64,000 nucleotides of DNA from Pseudothermotoga hypogea DSM 11164 = NBRC 106472 (lineage in GTDB: Bacteria > Thermotogota > Thermotogae > Thermotogales > DSM-5069). The notes below the pieces were generated by a model. That model saw nothing but the letters and a program-made list of their open reading frames with translations, had not been told where the DNA came from and did not search any database. Below are positions 43,222-58,897 of the stretch, piece by piece. The translations under genes were made by a program, and so were the position numbers. Location: assembly GCF_000816145.1 (NCBI RefSeq), contig NZ_CP007141.1, forward strand, positions 682,001 through 746,000, read 5' to 3'. Numbering within the stretch: the stretch's first letter is position 1; every line of letters starts with the position of its first letter.

Positions 43222-44541
43222 TCACACGTTCAAGTACCTTCTGATCTCCCAATCGGTTACACTGATACTGAATTCTCTCCATTCTCTTCTCTTCAGTTCC
43301 AGGAATTTTCTGAAAATGTGCTCTCCGAGAACTTCTTTGACGAGAGTGGAGTTTTTCATTTCCTCCAATGCGTCCTTCAGCGAACCGGGCAACGATTCTA
43401 TCTTTATCTGAGCCTTCTTCTCATCGCTCATCGTGTAGATGTTTTCCTCGATCGGCAGAGGTGGGTCGGTACGTTTTTCGATTCCATCCAGGCCCGCTGC
43501 CACCATCACGGCGAGTGCCAGATAGGTGTTGCAGCTGGGATCTGGTGCTCTGTACTCAATCCTCGTCGATTTGCCCCTGGCAGCTGGAACCCTTATCAGA
43601 GCACTCCTGTTCGCCTTCGACCAGGCGATGTTCACGGGAGCCTCATAACCTGGTACCAAGCGTTTGTAACTGTTCACTGTTGGGTTCGTGATTGCGGTGA
43701 TCTCCTTGGCGTGTGCGATCAAACCACCAACGAAGTAATACAGCGTCTTTGAAAGGCCGTCCGAAGCGCTGGGATCATGGAAAGCGTTTTCTCCGTCCCT
43801 GAAGAGACTCAAGTGCGTGTGCATCCCCGAACCGTTGATCCCAAAGAAGGGTTTCGGCATGAACGTGACGTGCAAGTTGTACTTTATGGCGATCGTCTTC
43901 AAAACCAACTTCACAGTCTGTGTGTTGTCTGCTGTCCTGACCAGTTCATCGTAACGAAAATCGACCTCGTGCTGTGAGGGTGCCCCTTCATGGTGTGAAG
44001 CCTCAACGTCGATGCCCATCGTTCTAAGGGCCACGGCCGCTTCGCTTCTCAGAGATTCAACCTGGTTGAGGGGCAACAGGTCAAAGTAACTTCCCCGATC
44101 GAGCGTCTCTGCCACGGGGAAACCTTTCGAGTCTCTTGGTACAACGAAGAATTCCAGTTCAGGCCCGGCATAGGGGACAAAGCCCATCTTCTTTGCCTTT
44201 TCGACGACGAGTTTCAGTCTGTATCGCGGATCCCCCTCAAACGGTGTTCCGTCAGGTTTGTACACATCACAGATCAACCTCGCGCTCTTGATACCGTCGG
44301 TTGTCCAAGGCAGAATGGCGAAAGTTTCTGGATCGGGCCTCAGGTACATGTCCGATTCTTCGATTCTCACAAAACCTTCGATGGACGATCCATCGAACAT
44401 GATACCCCTTTCAAAGGCCCTGGGTAGCTCTTGAGTGGGTATCTCCACGTTCTTGACGTTCCCGTTGATGTCCGAAAACTGCAATCTCACGAACTGGATA
44501 CTTTCTTCCTCCACGAGCTTCAGAACATCCTCCGCTTTCAT
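43222..44541 (-). CDS. glnA: Glutamine synthetase, type I
   Basis: ATP-dependent ammonia assimilation enzyme, 439 aa, forming a dodecamer in the cytosol. Length and sequence suit the GSI-alpha group. Motifs are FDGSSIEGFVRIEESDMYLR (latch and first Glu), GPELEFFVV, ASHHEGAPSQHEVDFRYDEL, the ATP loop KPFFGINGSGMHTHLSLF, and RSALIRVPAARGKSTRIEYR. The Tyr adenylylation loop of the GSI-beta type is not evident, so feedback control is more likely than adenylylation. It heads a leftward string with the regulator and trk genes. The ATG is preceded by a G-rich GAGGGGGA site. Confidence 0.96.
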   Translation of the reverse strand: MKAEDVLKLVEEESIQFVRLQFSDINGNVKNVEIPTQELPRAFERGIMFDGSSIEGFVRIEESDMYLRPDPETFAILPWTTDGIKSARLICDVYKPDGTPFEGDPRYRLKLVVEKAKKMGFVPYAGPELEFFVVPRDSKGFPVAETLDRGSYFDLLPLNQVESLRSEAAVALRTMGIDVEASHHEGAPSQHEVDFRYDELVRTADNTQTVKLVLKTIAIKYNLHVTFMPKPFFGINGSGMHTHLSLFRDGENAFHDPSASDGLSKTLYYFVGGLIAHAKEITAITNPTVNSYKRLVPGYEAPVNIAWSKANRSALIRVPAARGKSTRIEYRAPDPSCNTYLALAVMVAAGLDGIEKRTDPPLPIEENIYTMSDEKKAQIKIESLPGSLKDALEEMKNSTLVKEVLGEHIFRKFLELKRREWREFSISVTDWEIRRYLNV

Positions 44542-45375: not shown

Positions 45376-46293
45376 TCAAAGTTTTCGTGAACAACGCACG
45401 GCGTCGTCGAATATCTTGATAATCAATTCCTCGTAACTCAACTTCGCGGCTTCCGCCATCTTGATTATGTCGGAATAGTTTGGAGTGAGCATCGGAAGTG
45501 AGTTCACGTCGAGAAAGTAAACCTCGTTTCCCCTTACACGCAGATCCATGCGAGTGTAATTTCTCAGGTTCAAAGCCTTGAAAGCCATTCGTGCGTAATG
45601 TTCTATCTTTCTTCTCAGATCTTCATCGATGCGCGCAGGACAGAAGTAACGCGTCTGCTCACCATAGTAATGTTTAACCCTGTAGGAATAAAACCGCTCG
45701 AGCCCGTCTGGCAGTGTGGAAAAATCTATCTCGAGAATGGGTAGCACTTCATTCGCCACGATACCCACACTGAGTTCTTTTCCTTCTATGAACTCTTCCA
45801 CCAGTGCAGGTTCGTTGAACTCTTCGTGAACCCTCTTCACAGCCTTTTTGAGTGCTTCCACACTCTCGACCACCGAATCCGCATCGATTCCCTTTGCACT
45901 ACCTTGTCTCGAAGGTTTCACTATGGCGGGACGAAAATCCATCGTCTTTGGCTCTTCACCGACCGGTACGACGAAGAAATTCGGCGTTGGTATTCCGTAA
46001 TGCTGAAGAACGATCTTGGTCATGATCTTGTCGGTGCAGAGAGCGTGTGCGAGTGCAGAAGAACCCGTATAGGGTATTCTCAAGACGTCGAGTACAGCAG
46101 GAACATGCATTTGAAGATGTGCAGTCGACAGATTGAAGACCGCATCGAAAGTCTTGACGCGTTCGATGAAGTCATCACCAAATGGAAGCTTTTCAACGTC
46201 GTGATGTTTCGACAAAGCCTCGCAAACGCTGTCGATCATTTTGACACGTGACTCGTCGAGATTTTCAAGATCGTAGACGACGGCAACTTTCAT
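45376..46293 (-). CDS. ATP-grasp ligase related to D-Ala-D-Ala ligase
   Basis: ATP-grasp enzyme of 305 aa, shaped like Ddl. Motifs are VAVVYDLEN at the N-terminus, TGSSALAHALCTDKIMTKIV, the ATP lid region PSRQGSAKGIDADSVVES, EEFIEGKELSVGIVAN, and the Mg-binding end FLDVNSLPMLTPNYSDIIKM. Ddl normally reads EVNTLPG(F/M)T, so this is a divergent member and the substrate is probably another amino acid or carboxylate. The ATG overlaps the stop of the B12 protein (ATGA). The three genes from 49003 to 45376 are coupled, so its role lies in that unknown pathway and not clearly in the cell wall. Confidence 0.82.
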   Translation of the reverse strand: MKVAVVYDLENLDESRVKMIDSVCEALSKHHDVEKLPFGDDFIERVKTFDAVFNLSTAHLQMHVPAVLDVLRIPYTGSSALAHALCTDKIMTKIVLQHYGIPTPNFFVVPVGEEPKTMDFRPAIVKPSRQGSAKGIDADSVVESVEALKKAVKRVHEEFNEPALVEEFIEGKELSVGIVANEVLPILEIDFSTLPDGLERFYSYRVKHYYGEQTRYFCPARIDEDLRRKIEHYARMAFKALNLRNYTRMDLRVRGNEVYFLDVNSLPMLTPNYSDIIKMAEAAKLSYEELIIKIFDDAVRCSRKL

Positions 46294-47924
46294 TCATGTG
46301 ACCTCCCCAGAATTTTTGCAAGTCTTTCTTTCTCACTAATTACTCTTCCATTTTCATCAACGCATCTGCACTGTCCATCTATTATCGCAGTTCTGACCTC
46401 GCCTTTCGCCACGGAGAAACCTTTGAGTGCCGGAGCGTCCAGTATTCCGATCTTAACGGCTTCGAAGAGTAGGTCTGGGTTAAGTAAATCTTCATCGGAG
46501 CCACCACCGAGTGACTTGATGGCTTCAATTATCTGCAAGGCTTCTTCTTTGATTCGCTCCTTTTCCCCTCGTATCCAAGGATCCGCCAGAGGATCTGAAA
46601 GACCGCGCAGTGCAACGTTTATGGCCCTTCTGGCAATCTTGACGCTCTCTATGATCTCCTTTGCCGTAGCTCTCTTCACAGATTCACAATAGGCGACGAC
46701 GTGCACTATGTGCGGTTCAAGCGCCATCCCGTAGAACATGGAGACGCCTATCTGTCCCTTTGCCGCATCGGGGTCTGCTGGCATAGACATCAGACCTGTT
46801 CTTATCATTCGATAAACTTTGAAATTTTCATCTGCGAGGCTTTCAACAAGTTCCCTTTTCGCCATCATCTTGGCGATGTCACCTTTCGGCGATAAACCCA
46901 TGGGTGTTTCCAGCATGAACTGTTGCACGTACTCCTTCACACCAAGCTTCTTCGCGGCAAAGGTGGCGAGGTACGCCGCGGCGACCTCCACGGCATCGTG
47001 GGCTAATCTCAAGGCCCACTGGTGAGAGTCGGTCACTTCAACCGGCACATCGTTCTCACCGTTCCAGCGTATCGCCTCCATGTTCTCCTTGATCGCTTCA
47101 AGCAAAGGCCTGTCGGAGCGTCTGTCGAGGTCGCTGTACCACATGAGCGGTATCGCCGCCCACGCATTGTTAAGTGTCTCCTTCAGCAGTTTTGAAAACT
47201 CCACCATGTGTCTCGTGCCTGCGTAGCACCTGACGAGCGGATAATTTCCTCTTCTGCTTGCTTGGTACGATCTCACGAAGTCTTCTTTTGTTCTTATCGG
47301 TGCCCCACCGGCACCATCTTGCTTTGGATCCATCTTCTCCGGTTCGAAAAAGAACTGTTGACAGTTCTGATCAGGTGCAATGGATATGACGTCCAGCAGT
47401 TGAGAATCCGCCATTTTTTCGATCTCTTTTATGGTCTCTTCGAGCGTTTGTAACCCTATGTGATGTCGTATGAGAGGAAAAGGGCTTTTGAATTTTATTC
47501 TTTCACCCAGCCTCTGCGGGTAAATCTCCATTCTTTGTAATTTCCGCGCCTCTCCTCTCAAGAACATGACGATTTCATCCATCTCTTCGGTCCCATCGAA
47601 GACCTTACTTATAAAATTGAACGTTCTCGCGACACTGGCCGTCTCCACCGTACCACCGAATATGTATGTCTTATTCAGAAGACCACGTTCTTTCAACAGA
47701 TGTTCCAAGGTTTGCAGAAGATTTCTCAGTGCTTCCGCACCGAGTCTGTAACTCATCGCGACGACATCAGGATCGTGCTTCTCTATCTCTTCCACGAGTT
47801 TCTCTATCGGTACGGCGGAACCTATGTACAGTGTTTCGTAACCGTTCTCCTTCGCCAAGTTGAGAAAATTGAGCAAACCAACGTTGTGAACGCAGCTTCC
47901 TATGGAGGCACCGATCATCTTCAT
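46290..47924 (-). CDS. B12-dependent mutase-like protein (fused MutS/MutE-type)
   Basis: Protein of about 544 aa not found in textbook pathways. Residues 1-140 look like a cobalamin-binding domain: GSCVHNVG corresponds to the DxHxxG motif (Cys in place of Asp, His kept), followed by NGYETLYIGSAVPIEKLVEE and DVVAMSYRLG. The remaining 400 residues resemble the TIM-barrel E chain of glutamate mutase; the end (LFEAVKIGILDAPALKGFSV then GRVISEKERL) fits the MutE tail. It would then be a one-chain adenosylcobalamin mutase. Methyl-transfer or a sensor role cannot be excluded. The start is uncertain among three close ATGs (47930, 47924, 47918). It overlaps both neighbours by 4 bases. Confidence 0.7.
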   Translation of the reverse strand: MKMIGASIGSCVHNVGLLNFLNLAKENGYETLYIGSAVPIEKLVEEIEKHDPDVVAMSYRLGAEALRNLLQTLEHLLKERGLLNKTYIFGGTVETASVARTFNFISKVFDGTEEMDEIVMFLRGEARKLQRMEIYPQRLGERIKFKSPFPLIRHHIGLQTLEETIKEIEKMADSQLLDVISIAPDQNCQQFFFEPEKMDPKQDGAGGAPIRTKEDFVRSYQASRRGNYPLVRCYAGTRHMVEFSKLLKETLNNAWAAIPLMWYSDLDRRSDRPLLEAIKENMEAIRWNGENDVPVEVTDSHQWALRLAHDAVEVAAAYLATFAAKKLGVKEYVQQFMLETPMGLSPKGDIAKMMAKRELVESLADENFKVYRMIRTGLMSMPADPDAAKGQIGVSMFYGMALEPHIVHVVAYCESVKRATAKEIIESVKIARRAINVALRGLSDPLADPWIRGEKERIKEEALQIIEAIKSLGGGSDEDLLNPDLLFEAVKIGILDAPALKGFSVAKGEVRTAIIDGQCRCVDENGRVISEKERLAKILGRSHE

Positions 47925-49003
47925 TGCCATCCCTCCTCCATGATTCGCTTGACCTCTTCGAGGGTTTTCCCCTTGAGATGAAGCCTCTCAAAGTTCCTAC
48001 CCTCTTTGAAGAAGTCGATGCCCATCATGATCGAGGCGAGCTTGACGATGGCATCGATCGTGGGTGTTTTCACCTTAACCAACTTTCCGAAGGCTGATAT
48101 GGGCACCAAACTTGTGGGCACGTCCTCCAAGATGTATCTGTTCTCGAGGCTCGTGGGCGCCTGTATGCCCCTGTAACCTTCGTTGTTGTGTATCGCATCG
48201 TACAGATCCTTCCCCTTCACATCGTACGCGTAGGATAACCACTGCACGGCCGTCATGGGTTCAATGCCAAACTTCCTTGCGACTGCGCACCTTTCTTCGT
48301 CGATCGCTTGCAGAACCTTCGCCACAGATGGGCTTATGCCCTCAAAGTAGAACTCAAACTTTCCGAACGTCGTTTCCACCCAACCTGCGTTCAAGACAAT
48401 TGTGGCAGGATGAAAAACTGCACCTATGTTGTTGAAACTCGTGTAAAGCGTGTTCGGCGCGAGTTCAAACTCGGGCATGACCTTCAGAAGGGTTTCTTCC
48501 AGGTCTTTGTTTCTCGCCGCAGGGAGAGCCGCAACCGGCACGGCGTTCTTGATTCTGAAGATTCGTACCACGCCAGGATTAGACATGCGTGATGCGAAGA
48601 CGAATGTTTGGGCCTCAGCGATGACAACGTCTTTCTGCACACCCTTTTCCTTCAACACGTTGGCGAACTCCAGAGCTCCAGCCGTTCTTCCTGGATTGAG
48701 CACGATGATTTGACCATCTTCGAGCAGTGGGGCGAGCTTTTCGGCCACTTCACGGTGTGCGTTGGCTGGAACGACGACCATGAGGAGTTTTCTACCCTTG
48801 ATCGCTTCTGCCAAATCCGTCGTTGCAAAAGAAATCTGCGCCGTTGCGTTGACTTCACCCTCGAGCTTGATCTTCCTCGTCTTCAAAATGGGTGCGATCC
48901 TTTTTTCGGATCTGTTGTACAGTGAAACGTCATACCCTTTTAGAGCAAGATACCCTGCAAGAGCTTGCCCACCATTGCCTGCGCCAATTACGCATATTTT
49001 CAC
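47921..49003 (-). CDS. NAD(P)-dependent octopine/nopaline dehydrogenase family protein
   Basis: Cytosolic oxidoreductase of about 360 aa. The N-terminal Rossmann turn is VKICVIGAGNGGQALAGYLA; the C-terminal half is the helical octopine-dehydrogenase domain, with HPATIVLNAGWVETTFGKFE and RGIQAPTSLENRYILEDVPT carrying the conserved His/Asn/Asp region. Opine dehydrogenases join or split an amino acid and a keto acid; relatives act on other amino or hydroxy acids. The GTG at 49003 lies 8 bases after GGAGG. It is the first gene of the three-gene unit, with a promoter at 49034-49062. Confidence 0.84.
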   Translation of the reverse strand: MKICVIGAGNGGQALAGYLALKGYDVSLYNRSEKRIAPILKTRKIKLEGEVNATAQISFATTDLAEAIKGRKLLMVVVPANAHREVAEKLAPLLEDGQIIVLNPGRTAGALEFANVLKEKGVQKDVVIAEAQTFVFASRMSNPGVVRIFRIKNAVPVAALPAARNKDLEETLLKVMPEFELAPNTLYTSFNNIGAVFHPATIVLNAGWVETTFGKFEFYFEGISPSVAKVLQAIDEERCAVARKFGIEPMTAVQWLSYAYDVKGKDLYDAIHNNEGYRGIQAPTSLENRYILEDVPTSLVPISAFGKLVKVKTPTIDAIVKLASIMMGIDFFKEGRNFERLHLKGKTLEEVKRIMEEGWQ

Positions 49004-49033
49004 ATACATCACCTCCGTATCGGTACTATTGCA

Positions 49034-57219: not shown

Positions 57220-58157
57220 CCTCTTATCGGTGCCTCCTCGCTGTTGAGTATTTCCTCCACGATCTCTTGCTTGGTCTTTCGCATCAATCTGGCTTCCGGC
57301 TTGAGTATCAATCTGTGTGCGAGTACATCCAGAGCGATACTCTTCACATCGTCGGGTAAGACGAAGTTTCGCTCGCTCATCGCGGCCAGAGCTCTGGACA
57401 GATGCACCAACGCGATACTTCCCCTTGGGCTGGATCCGAGCGCGACATCCGGATGAGTCCTCGTCCTGGCCACGATCCTGACGGCGTAATCCATGACGGA
57501 ATCATCAACGTAGACTTCTTTTACGAGTTCTTTCATCCTCGAAAGTTCGCCTGCTTCACACACAGGTTCGAGCGACTCTATGGGATGAGATCTTTCCAAT
57601 CTTCTCAGTAGTTCTATCTCCTGGTCCCTCTCGAGGTACCCAAGGCTCAGACAAATCGCGAATCGATCCAGCTGCGCCTCGGGCAACGGGAACGTTCCTT
57701 CGAACTCCACAGGATTCTGTGTCGCTATCACGAAGAAATGTTCGCTCAGCTGGTACGTCACCCCATCGATACTCACCTGTTTTTCAGCCATGGCTTGAAG
57801 CAAGGCCGACTGTGTCCTCGGTGTGGCCCTGTTTATCTCGTCCACCAACAGAACGTCCGTGAAGAGAACTCCCTTCTTGAAGCTGAACTGTCCGGTTCTC
57901 GGATCGAGCACGTTGAATCCTGTGATGTCGGAAGGTGTGAGATCTGGGGTGCACTGCACTCTGCTGAAGTTCAAGCCGAGTGAGATGGCGAAAGATCTTG
58001 CAAGCATGGTCTTTCCCACACCGGGTACGTCGTTGATGAGCACGTGCGCCGAGCTCAGAAAAGCTGCCAGTATCTTTTTTATGACCTCGTCTTTACCAAC
58101 GATGACACGAGAGACATTCTTCAGAACGCGTTCAGCAAAGTCAGCAACCTGTTTCAT
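57216..58157 (-). CDS. MoxR-family AAA+ ATPase
   Basis: Cytosolic chaperone-like ATPase of 313 aa. Walker A is GVPGVGKTMLARSFA, Walker B LLVDEINRATPRTQ, the sensor region TQNPVEFEGTFPLPEAQLDR, and the C-terminal lid SPRGSIALVHLSRALAAMSE. MoxR ATPases remodel or insert cofactors into partners, usually together with a DUF58 vWA protein as here. The ATG at 58157 lies 8 bases after GGAGG and overlaps the DUF6062-like stop (ATGA). Confidence 0.93.
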   Translation of the reverse strand: MKQVADFAERVLKNVSRVIVGKDEVIKKILAAFLSSAHVLINDVPGVGKTMLARSFAISLGLNFSRVQCTPDLTPSDITGFNVLDPRTGQFSFKKGVLFTDVLLVDEINRATPRTQSALLQAMAEKQVSIDGVTYQLSEHFFVIATQNPVEFEGTFPLPEAQLDRFAICLSLGYLERDQEIELLRRLERSHPIESLEPVCEAGELSRMKELVKEVYVDDSVMDYAVRIVARTRTHPDVALGSSPRGSIALVHLSRALAAMSERNFVLPDDVKSIALDVLAHRLILKPEARLMRKTKQEIVEEILNSEEAPIRG

Positions 58158-58804
58158 TTCAAACGCCTCCAATGATGAAGATTCTTCGCAATGAGTTTCC
58201 CTACAGTTTTTCTCGCCACAATTTCCTCAGGAGTGAAGCTCTCTTTGTTTCTGTAATCGTGCTTGTTGACAAACGAGTTCAGCAATCCTATCAGATGCCT
58301 GTGCTTCGAGAGTTGAATCGCCTTGAAAGTCTCTCTGAGAGAGTTCTTGAGCCTTGAGAAGACGAAGGCGTAATGGTCGAAACACAACACAGATTCTGAA
58401 GATTTGTACAGATCGAGCAGTTCACCAAGGTTGTTCAGAAACGCCTTCAGGTACAGCGACTCGAAGGTCCTTTCCTTCTCGCACAAGAAACAGCTGGAGC
58501 CACGATCCAAATCGAAGTGGTTTTCCAACAGTTTGGTGAGATGATCCAGAACGTCAGAATAGATTATCGCCAAGCCCATGTATCCCAGTTCCATGTGTTT
58601 TGACAGATACGTTTCTATCCTCGCAACGTGCCCACGACACAATCCTTTGGATCGAAGCTCGGACCTAACAGTTACGTCGTTCACCATTTCGTACAGAAGG
58701 CTGTCGATGGTTGAATCTAAAGCCTTATCTATGAGTAAGCATATTGGACATTCCAGTCGCGCTTGAGCGATCGCATCCTTCAAGCTGATCTCAACAAGAC
58801 CCAT
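58154..58804 (-). CDS. DUF6062-like cysteine/histidine-rich protein
   Basis: Cytosolic protein of 216 aa, first gene of the MoxR operon. It has four paired metal-ligand motifs: CPICL (residue ~17), CRGH (~57), CFLC (~104) and CFDHY (~140), consistent with zinc binding. The rest is helical. It resembles DUF6062 proteins, whose function is not known; the coupling to moxR suggests it is a partner or substrate of that complex. The ATG at 58804 is preferred; a GTG three codons earlier is an alternative. Confidence 0.7.
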   Translation of the reverse strand: MGLVEISLKDAIAQARLECPICLLIDKALDSTIDSLLYEMVNDVTVRSELRSKGLCRGHVARIETYLSKHMELGYMGLAIIYSDVLDHLTKLLENHFDLDRGSSCFLCEKERTFESLYLKAFLNNLGELLDLYKSSESVLCFDHYAFVFSRLKNSLRETFKAIQLSKHRHLIGLLNSFVNKHDYRNKESFTPEEIVARKTVGKLIAKNLHHWRRLK

Positions 58805-58819
58805 TCGTCCCACCCAAAC

Positions 58820-58847
58820 AAAAAACTCCTACCCTCATGGTAGGAGT
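58820..58847 (-). terminator. Intrinsic terminator between MATE gene and MoxR operon
   Basis: Nine-bp perfect stem ACTCCTACC / GGTAGGAGT with a 5-base loop, followed on the minus strand by TTTTTGTTT. It ends the MATE transcript 50 bases after its stop and only 15 bases before the DUF6062-like start, so a promoter for the MoxR operon must lie within or upstream of the hairpin, or expression depends on read-through. Confidence 0.85.
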
Positions 58848-58897
58848 CATCAGCCCATTGGGCGATTGTGGCGGACTCCATCGCCAAGAAGATTTTA

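Follow-up and report, generated by a model that had tools for sequence, protein, structure and literature searches.

Organization of the three-gene locus

A 64-kb window of the single-contig genome of Pseudothermotoga hypogea (2,165,416 bp; positions 682,001 to 746,000 of NZ_CP007141.1) was analyzed. It contains a trio of consecutive genes on the minus strand. The first gene encodes an opine dehydrogenase-like protein (ODH, PF02317; 47921..49012), the second a single-chain B12 mutase (46290..47930), and the third a Ddl-like ATP-grasp ligase of 305 aa (45376..46293), which belongs to a clade apart from the true D-Ala-D-Ala ligases. These family assignments had been proposed in an original prediction made from the sequence, and they were borne out by matches to PF02317, to PF02310 together with a weak match to PF06368, and to PF07478, respectively.

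The ODH reading frame stops at 47921 and can start at ATG 49009 or at GTG 49003. Both candidates follow the Shine-Dalgarno (SD) motif GGAGG at 49016-49012 (motif and candidate starts, 49003..49016, minus strand), and the GTG, which is better spaced from it, is the likely start of a protein of 360 aa. The mutase gene stops at 46290. Its first ATG is at 47930, and the second, at 47924, has the better SD spacing and is the likely start of a protein of 544 aa. When the starts with the best SD spacing are chosen, 4-bp overlaps result at both junctions, as had been predicted: the ODH stop overlaps the second ATG of the mutase gene (47921..47924, minus strand), and the mutase stop overlaps the ligase start (46290..46293, minus strand). 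A shared promoter had also been claimed. The overlaps are compatible with it, but it was not demonstrated, as no sigma-70-like site was found upstream of 49016 and such sites were no more common in the region than in its shuffles. A search for a cobalamin riboswitch in the window yielded none.

The ODH is predicted to use acidic amino acids

The ODH matched the octopine dehydrogenase domain PF02317 at 5.9e-49. Its closest solved relative was 1BG6 (3.6e-78), an N-(1-D-carboxylethyl)-L-norvaline dehydrogenase, of which it is a clear homologue. The window ODH has the His201/Asp297 dyad, Trp258, and Arg292. Its Arg109 and Gly197 correspond to positions 111 and 198 of 1BG6, which govern the use of acidic substrates. 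Next, 82 partnered ODHs, i.e., ODHs encoded beside a relative of the mutase, were compared, including divergent ones beside mutases fused to MutL (see below). Arg was present at position 111 of the 1BG6-type enzyme (ArODH) in all 82 proteins and Gly at position 198 in 80 of them (Ala in two). His202, Trp258, and Arg292 were found in 82 of 82, and Asp297 in 78 (Glu in four). The combination of Arg and Gly was found in none of ten unpartnered PF02317 control ODHs, which were few and all plasmid-borne.

Six ODHs from hot springs, which are about 40% or less identical to the 1BG6-type enzyme, prefer L-Asp or L-Glu together with pyruvate as the preferred keto acid, and their products are (R)-configured at the new center (PMC10787698). 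They carry the pair Arg110/Gly198, versus Ala111/Asn198 in the Arthrobacter enzyme, and double mutants at this residue pair switch the preference between L-Phe and L-Asp (PMC10787698). The presence of the same signature in the window ODH and in the partnered ODHs predicts an acidic L-amino acid and pyruvate as substrates, and at the level of sequence this predicted specificity is well supported. The amino acid substrate of the original prediction was thus retained, but it is probably Asp/Glu-like rather than generic.

The mutase resembles glutamate mutase epsilon

The mutase matched the B12-binding domain PF02310 at 1.3e-11, and a weak match to MutE (PF06368, 3.9e-06) lay just below the cut-off. 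The chain begins with a cobalamin-binding domain (CxHxxG/DxHxxG, His15), to which a barrel similar to glutamate mutase epsilon is fused. AlphaFold2 yielded a confident model of the single chain (pLDDT 93.9), and the best PDB match of this model with Foldseek was the glutamate mutase epsilon chain 1cb7_B (E 9.6e-17, TM 0.59/0.66). Ornithine and lysine aminomutases and methylmalonyl-CoA mutase were the next-closest solved structures. At the sequence level, a search of the PDB sequences with a hidden Markov model profile of the mutase matched the B12 half alone.

In 75 mutase sequences, His15 and Gly18 of the B12 motif were invariant, and the Asp position of DxHxxG was occupied by Cys in 51 and by Asp in 24. 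Twelve further residues were invariant or nearly so: Arg155, His157, Gln191, Arg234 (one Lys), Tyr236, Arg271, Glu298, Arg308, Gln337, Arg377, His410, and Glu416.

A complete GlmL/MutL reactivase (PF13941, 5e-86; NF040745) forms one protein with the mutase in three phylum-level groups other than Thermotogota, and an ODH gene lies beside the fusion gene there. This fusion lends good support to adenosylcobalamin (AdoCbl)-dependent radical chemistry in the mutase family. The fusion proteins (loci L138-L141, L157, L180, and L181) have about 1216-1264 aa, and L157 is a fragment at a contig end. MutL was also considered as an obligatory partner of the mutase, and this was rejected, as MutL does not track the pair of ODH and mutase in Thermotogota. 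The second MutE-like match in the genome is presumably, as read from its sequence, a methylmalonyl-CoA-mutase-like gene, with an apparent chaperone gene. These two genes make the use of AdoCbl plausible in this organism.

The ligase has the Ddl fold and altered substrate positions

The ligase matched the C-terminal domain of D-Ala-D-Ala ligases (PF07478) at 8.4e-31 and has the Ddl fold, with TM values of about 0.8 to DdlA and DdlB and a Foldseek match to DdlA at 3.4e-27. The ATP/Mg residues are kept (K207, R248, D250, and N264). In DdlB, the substrate residues include E15, Y216, and S281-L282. L282 corresponds to an invariant Asp275 and Y216 to a variable His208, and no conserved Glu equivalent to E15 was found at the N-terminal site. 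With these changes, neither substrate of the ligase need be D-Ala.

In a tree, the true Ddl enzymes of the genomes formed a clade of their own (100/100), apart from the partnered ligases. The latter were placed on several branches, i.e., a main and a second Thermotogota branch, a second-phylum branch, and one stray; this tree has long branches and its deep order is uncertain. The pattern suggests that ligases were likely recruited repeatedly. Methyltransferase-ATP-grasp (Ddl-like) fusions of about 637-660 aa (L093, L094, and L097) were considered as a fused trio member and rejected, as they fell on another branch of the tree.

A dehydrogenase beside a Ddl-like ligase is also found in vanHAX, and together with the Ddl fold this could point to a modified, VanHA-like peptidoglycan terminus. 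However, the window genome retains a separate true Ddl (L158 clade), no dipeptidase gene is found alongside, a B12 mutase would have no obvious role, and the E15, Y216, and L282 positions are not kept. We regard this explanation as very improbable. No peptidoglycan gene lies directly beside the trio, as had been noted originally.

Additional ATP-grasp genes were observed. In four loci (L083, L085, L087, and L088), an ATP-grasp gene of the trio clade lies away from the pair and beside a gene for a dihydropyrimidinase-like amidohydrolase, and in all but one of these loci a gene similar to adenosine 5′-phosphosulfate (APS) kinase also adjoins it. A further Ddl-like ATP-grasp gene of the window genome (L079, 6865-7869, minus strand; genome 1528891-1529811) adjoins one gene similar to those for CoA-binding proteins and one for a TctC-like transporter.

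ODH and mutase form a conserved pair in several phyla

The distribution of the genes was analyzed in 103 Thermotogota genomes and then in a broader sample reaching other phyla, which was extended by phylum-wide searches; a first contig scan had reached close relatives only. In total, 89 loci were obtained, 75 classified and 14 further ones. Some of them are near-duplicates or stem from related species, and thus the counts are not independent. The module occurs in Thermotogota and in no fewer than five further phyla, with six phylum-level groups being certain. The mutase was present in 65 of the 103 Thermotogota genomes, and in the same 65 an ODH gene adjoined it. Overall, an ODH gene was found beside the mutase gene in 89 of 89 loci: by open reading frame (ORF) calling in 68 of the 75 classified loci, by tblastn in the remaining seven, and in all 14 further loci. 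A description of the pair was not found in the literature searched, and no full relative of the mutase was found in plasmid and viral collections.

The ligase gene was less constant. It adjoins the pair in 46 of the 75 loci (41 by ORF calling and five in which just the ODH had been missed), and in the remaining ones it is elsewhere in the genome or missing. Eight related genomes (family f10) keep the pair without a ligase. Nevertheless, 54 of the 65 mutase-bearing Thermotogota genomes encoded a ligase-family protein with a high score, versus 2 of the 38 mutase-free ones (Fisher p 1e-15, which is only indicative, as the genomes are related).

The gene order varied. Most Thermotogota had the order ODH-mutase-ligase. 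The ligase gene came first (ligase-ODH-mutase) in one family of Thermotogota and also in a second phylum, and it lay in the middle (ODH-ligase-mutase) in genome G057. A third phylum had mutase-ODH without a ligase. In G057 (L073, 4910-8829), the ODH and the ligase are 80% and 70% identical to those of the window, but the mutase is a distant form of 634 aa with 30% identity, and thus, the mutase has been displaced in place inside the operon. The operon mutase of genome G054 (L074) has likewise been displaced by a distant form of about 634 aa. A similar mutase of 632 aa is encoded in genome G229 (L131), together with an ODH and an adjoining major facilitator superfamily (MFS) transporter.

The flanking genes were tested as a functional clue and rejected, as no consistent extra partner was found between lineages. 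One group of Thermotogota has hrcA-grpE-dnaJ-nadE-glycerate kinase genes on one side of the trio and YjbQ/regulator/glgA/galT genes on the other, and in other lineages the neighbors are UDP-sugar-dehydrogenase-like genes, homoserine/threonine genes, or genes of different, unrelated kinds. The reordering with retained association, the differing flanks, and the exchange of the mutase in G057 argue that the genes for ODH, mutase, and ligase are functionally coupled. The housekeeping flanks and the ligases encoded elsewhere in the genome would also fit three unrelated tasks, with the operon shared by chance or for expression, but the adjacency of ODH and mutase in all loci over several phyla, the three gene orders of the trio, and the displacement of the mutase in place make this scarcely credible.

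The original prediction placed the three enzymes in a single pathway, with a B12-dependent rearrangement, a reductive coupling of the opine type, and a ligation that consumes ATP. It was to fail if the genes were rarely adjacent in other genomes; as they were recurrently adjacent across phyla, it withstood this test and is supported in outline. However, the constant unit is only the pair of ODH and mutase, which the ligase frequently joins.

Several single loci showed further arrangements. In genome G025 (L064), the locus of ODH and mutase and the upstream homoserine/threonine genes are duplicated about 10 kb apart. In L134 (3135-4736, plus strand), the ODH ahead of the mutase is fused to an N-terminal phosphotransferase system EIIA type-2 domain (PF00359). 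Two members of one phylum were sampled (L127, 1680-4971, minus strand; L135, 7868-11164, minus strand), and in each, genes for a CBS-domain protein and a Na+/H+ exchanger overlap the mutase gene, which hints at a link to ion balance.

Neighboring genes and other features of the window

Two genes downstream of the trio lies a gene (43222-44541) that, from its sequence, we take to be glutamine synthetase-like, and the gene between them is presumably RNase HII-like. This neighborhood is common to close relatives only. Elsewhere in the window, a fluoride riboswitch (RF01734, 55 bits) was found at 58834-58894 on the minus strand, just upstream of a gene for a 219-aa protein (58154-58813) and a MoxR/DUF58-type operon; no obvious fluoride exporter was seen.

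A proposed pathway around an acidic opine

Taken together, we regard it as moderately probable that the genes form a metabolic module around the opine of an acidic amino acid, i.e., an N-[(R)-1-carboxyethyl] amino acid. The module would include a rearrangement of the glutamate mutase type and, in genomes with the ligase, an amidation. The ODH would reductively couple pyruvate with Asp, Glu, or a branched relative, e.g., 3-methylaspartate, to yield the N-[(R)-1-carboxyethyl]-amino acid, or it might operate in reverse. The mutase would catalyze a 1,2 carbon-skeleton rearrangement of the acidic partner, either free before the ODH reaction or as the opine after it. For an ODH with an acidic amino acid as substrate, a glutamate-mutase-type enzyme would be a natural partner. 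The ligase would activate a carboxylate, with the one on the (R)-carboxyethyl half as the simplest candidate, and then form an amide with another amine. A Ddl-like enzyme would be natural for activating this new half of the opine, as the half is a D-alanine with a substituted nitrogen. We infer the mutase substrate, the order and direction of the steps, the partners of the ligase, and the end product. This includes two elements of the original prediction, namely the isomerization of an amino acid by the mutase as the opening step and the molecule to be attached by the ligase.

Several observations weigh against the proposed module. The first concerns the arginine claw of glutamate mutase, which binds the substrate with R66, R100, and R149 (PMC10947579). 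In the weak profile alignment on which the residue equivalences between the mutase and GlmE rest, Glu416 aligns with E330, but R66 is replaced by His157 and R100 by Gln191. R149 perhaps corresponds to Arg234, which is uncertain, and the region of E171 has no convincing alignment. As R66 and R100 are not kept, it appears unlikely that free L-glutamate is held as in GlmE. The chemistry of the mutase thus looks glutamate-mutase-like, with a substrate unlike free glutamate held in the same way. The altered claw favors, but cannot decide for, a rearrangement of the opine or of an acid other than Glu over free Glu as the first substrate. In a simpler scheme, a true glutamate mutase would generate 3-methylaspartate, and the ODH would act as an amino-acid dehydrogenase to yield a keto acid, e.g., 2-oxobutyrate. 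Glutamate mutase is indeed the closest fold, and the ODH pocket suits acidic amino acids. However, with two of the three claw arginines altered, the opine-type dyad, Arg, and Trp retained in the ODH, and the ligase left unexplained, this scheme is improbable.

The second observation is that several ODHs from hot springs act slowly on L-Asp (KM 0.5-25 mM; PMC10787698). L-Asp may thus not be the native substrate of the ODH, and the native acid may differ, e.g., be a product of the mutase. Third, the ligase is not essential to the core, as it is missing in some pair-bearing genomes (f10). Fourth, no MutL protein was found in the family of the window (f1), this genome included, which leaves the reactivation of the mutase unexplained.

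Lastly, the loci with MutL fusions lie beside importers of the TRAP-TAXI or peptide-type ABC families and GntR/RpiR regulators, and in two phyla (L138 and L181) beside a D-glutamate-cyclase-like gene (PF14336). This suggests a catabolic role at these loci. Catabolism of an opine or N-substituted glutamate (or lactam) would involve an oxidative ODH that releases pyruvate and an acidic amino acid, a mutase that feeds central metabolism, and a side role for the ligase. Ornithine and lysine fermentation likewise follow the logic of a mutase step and a subsequent NAD-dependent dehydrogenase step. In contrast, no transporter, regulator, or downstream catabolic gene is conserved with the trio in Thermotogota, where it is mostly flanked by housekeeping genes that vary with the lineage, and an ATP-spending ligase suits biosynthesis better. 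We consider catabolism unlikely, but it deserves serious attention.

A more specific form of the proposed module can be put forward tentatively, and with more doubt than confidence. It would be a widespread and undescribed AdoCbl pathway to a new N-[(R)-1-carboxyethyl] branched acidic amino acid, in which the mutase would act on the opine or an opine precursor instead of glutamate and the ligase would then amidate the product, possibly to a metal chelator, osmolyte, or cofactor of anaerobes.

Comparison with known systems

In the pathways of the opine metallophores staphylopine and pseudopaline, an opine-type dehydrogenase likewise joins an amino acid and a keto acid, and one locus of mutase and ODH (L131) has the MFS transporter beside it. 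In contrast to these pathways, a B12 mutase is present, and a nicotianamine-synthase-like gene was not recognized in the neighborhoods. The ornithine 4,5- and lysine 5,6-aminomutase pathways also link a B12 mutase to an NAD-dependent dehydrogenase, but these aminomutases depend on pyridoxal phosphate, the dehydrogenase is of a different type, and no ligase is involved. With the Ddl/VanA-type ligases, the third protein shares the ATP-grasp fold and the ATP/Mg residues, whereas it lies outside the Ddl clade of the organism itself and has changed D-Ala-binding positions. If the proposed module is true, it would explain why a 'D-alanine ligase-like' gene recurs that does not encode a Ddl.

The ODH shares with the hot-spring enzymes (mODHs) and with ArODH/CENDH (1BG6) the homology to 1BG6, the His-Asp dyad, and the Trp, and with the mODHs also the Arg/Gly pair for acidic substrates, as judged from the published residues (PMC10787698). 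The mODHs were studied as biocatalysts (PMC10787698), and no report of a partner mutase or a physiological role was found in the literature searched. The module, if true, would suggest a physiological role for these acidic hot-spring ODHs.

The closest system is glutamate mutase (GlmE/MutE and GlmS/MutS, with the reactivase GlmL/MutL). The similarities comprise the predicted fold, the B12 domain with its invariant His, the position of E330 (Glu416), and, in some lineages, the GlmL/MutL fused to the mutase. The differences are that one chain with an N-terminal B12 domain replaces the separate sigma and epsilon chains, that R100 and R66 are replaced in the alignment, that the sequence similarity is marginal, and that a methylaspartase was not seen alongside. 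To our knowledge, no more than a handful of carbon-skeleton rearrangements by B12 mutases have been described. The altered claw of this conserved mutase subfamily and the specificity of the adjoining ODH, readable from experimentally tested residues, make a new B12 reaction directly testable.

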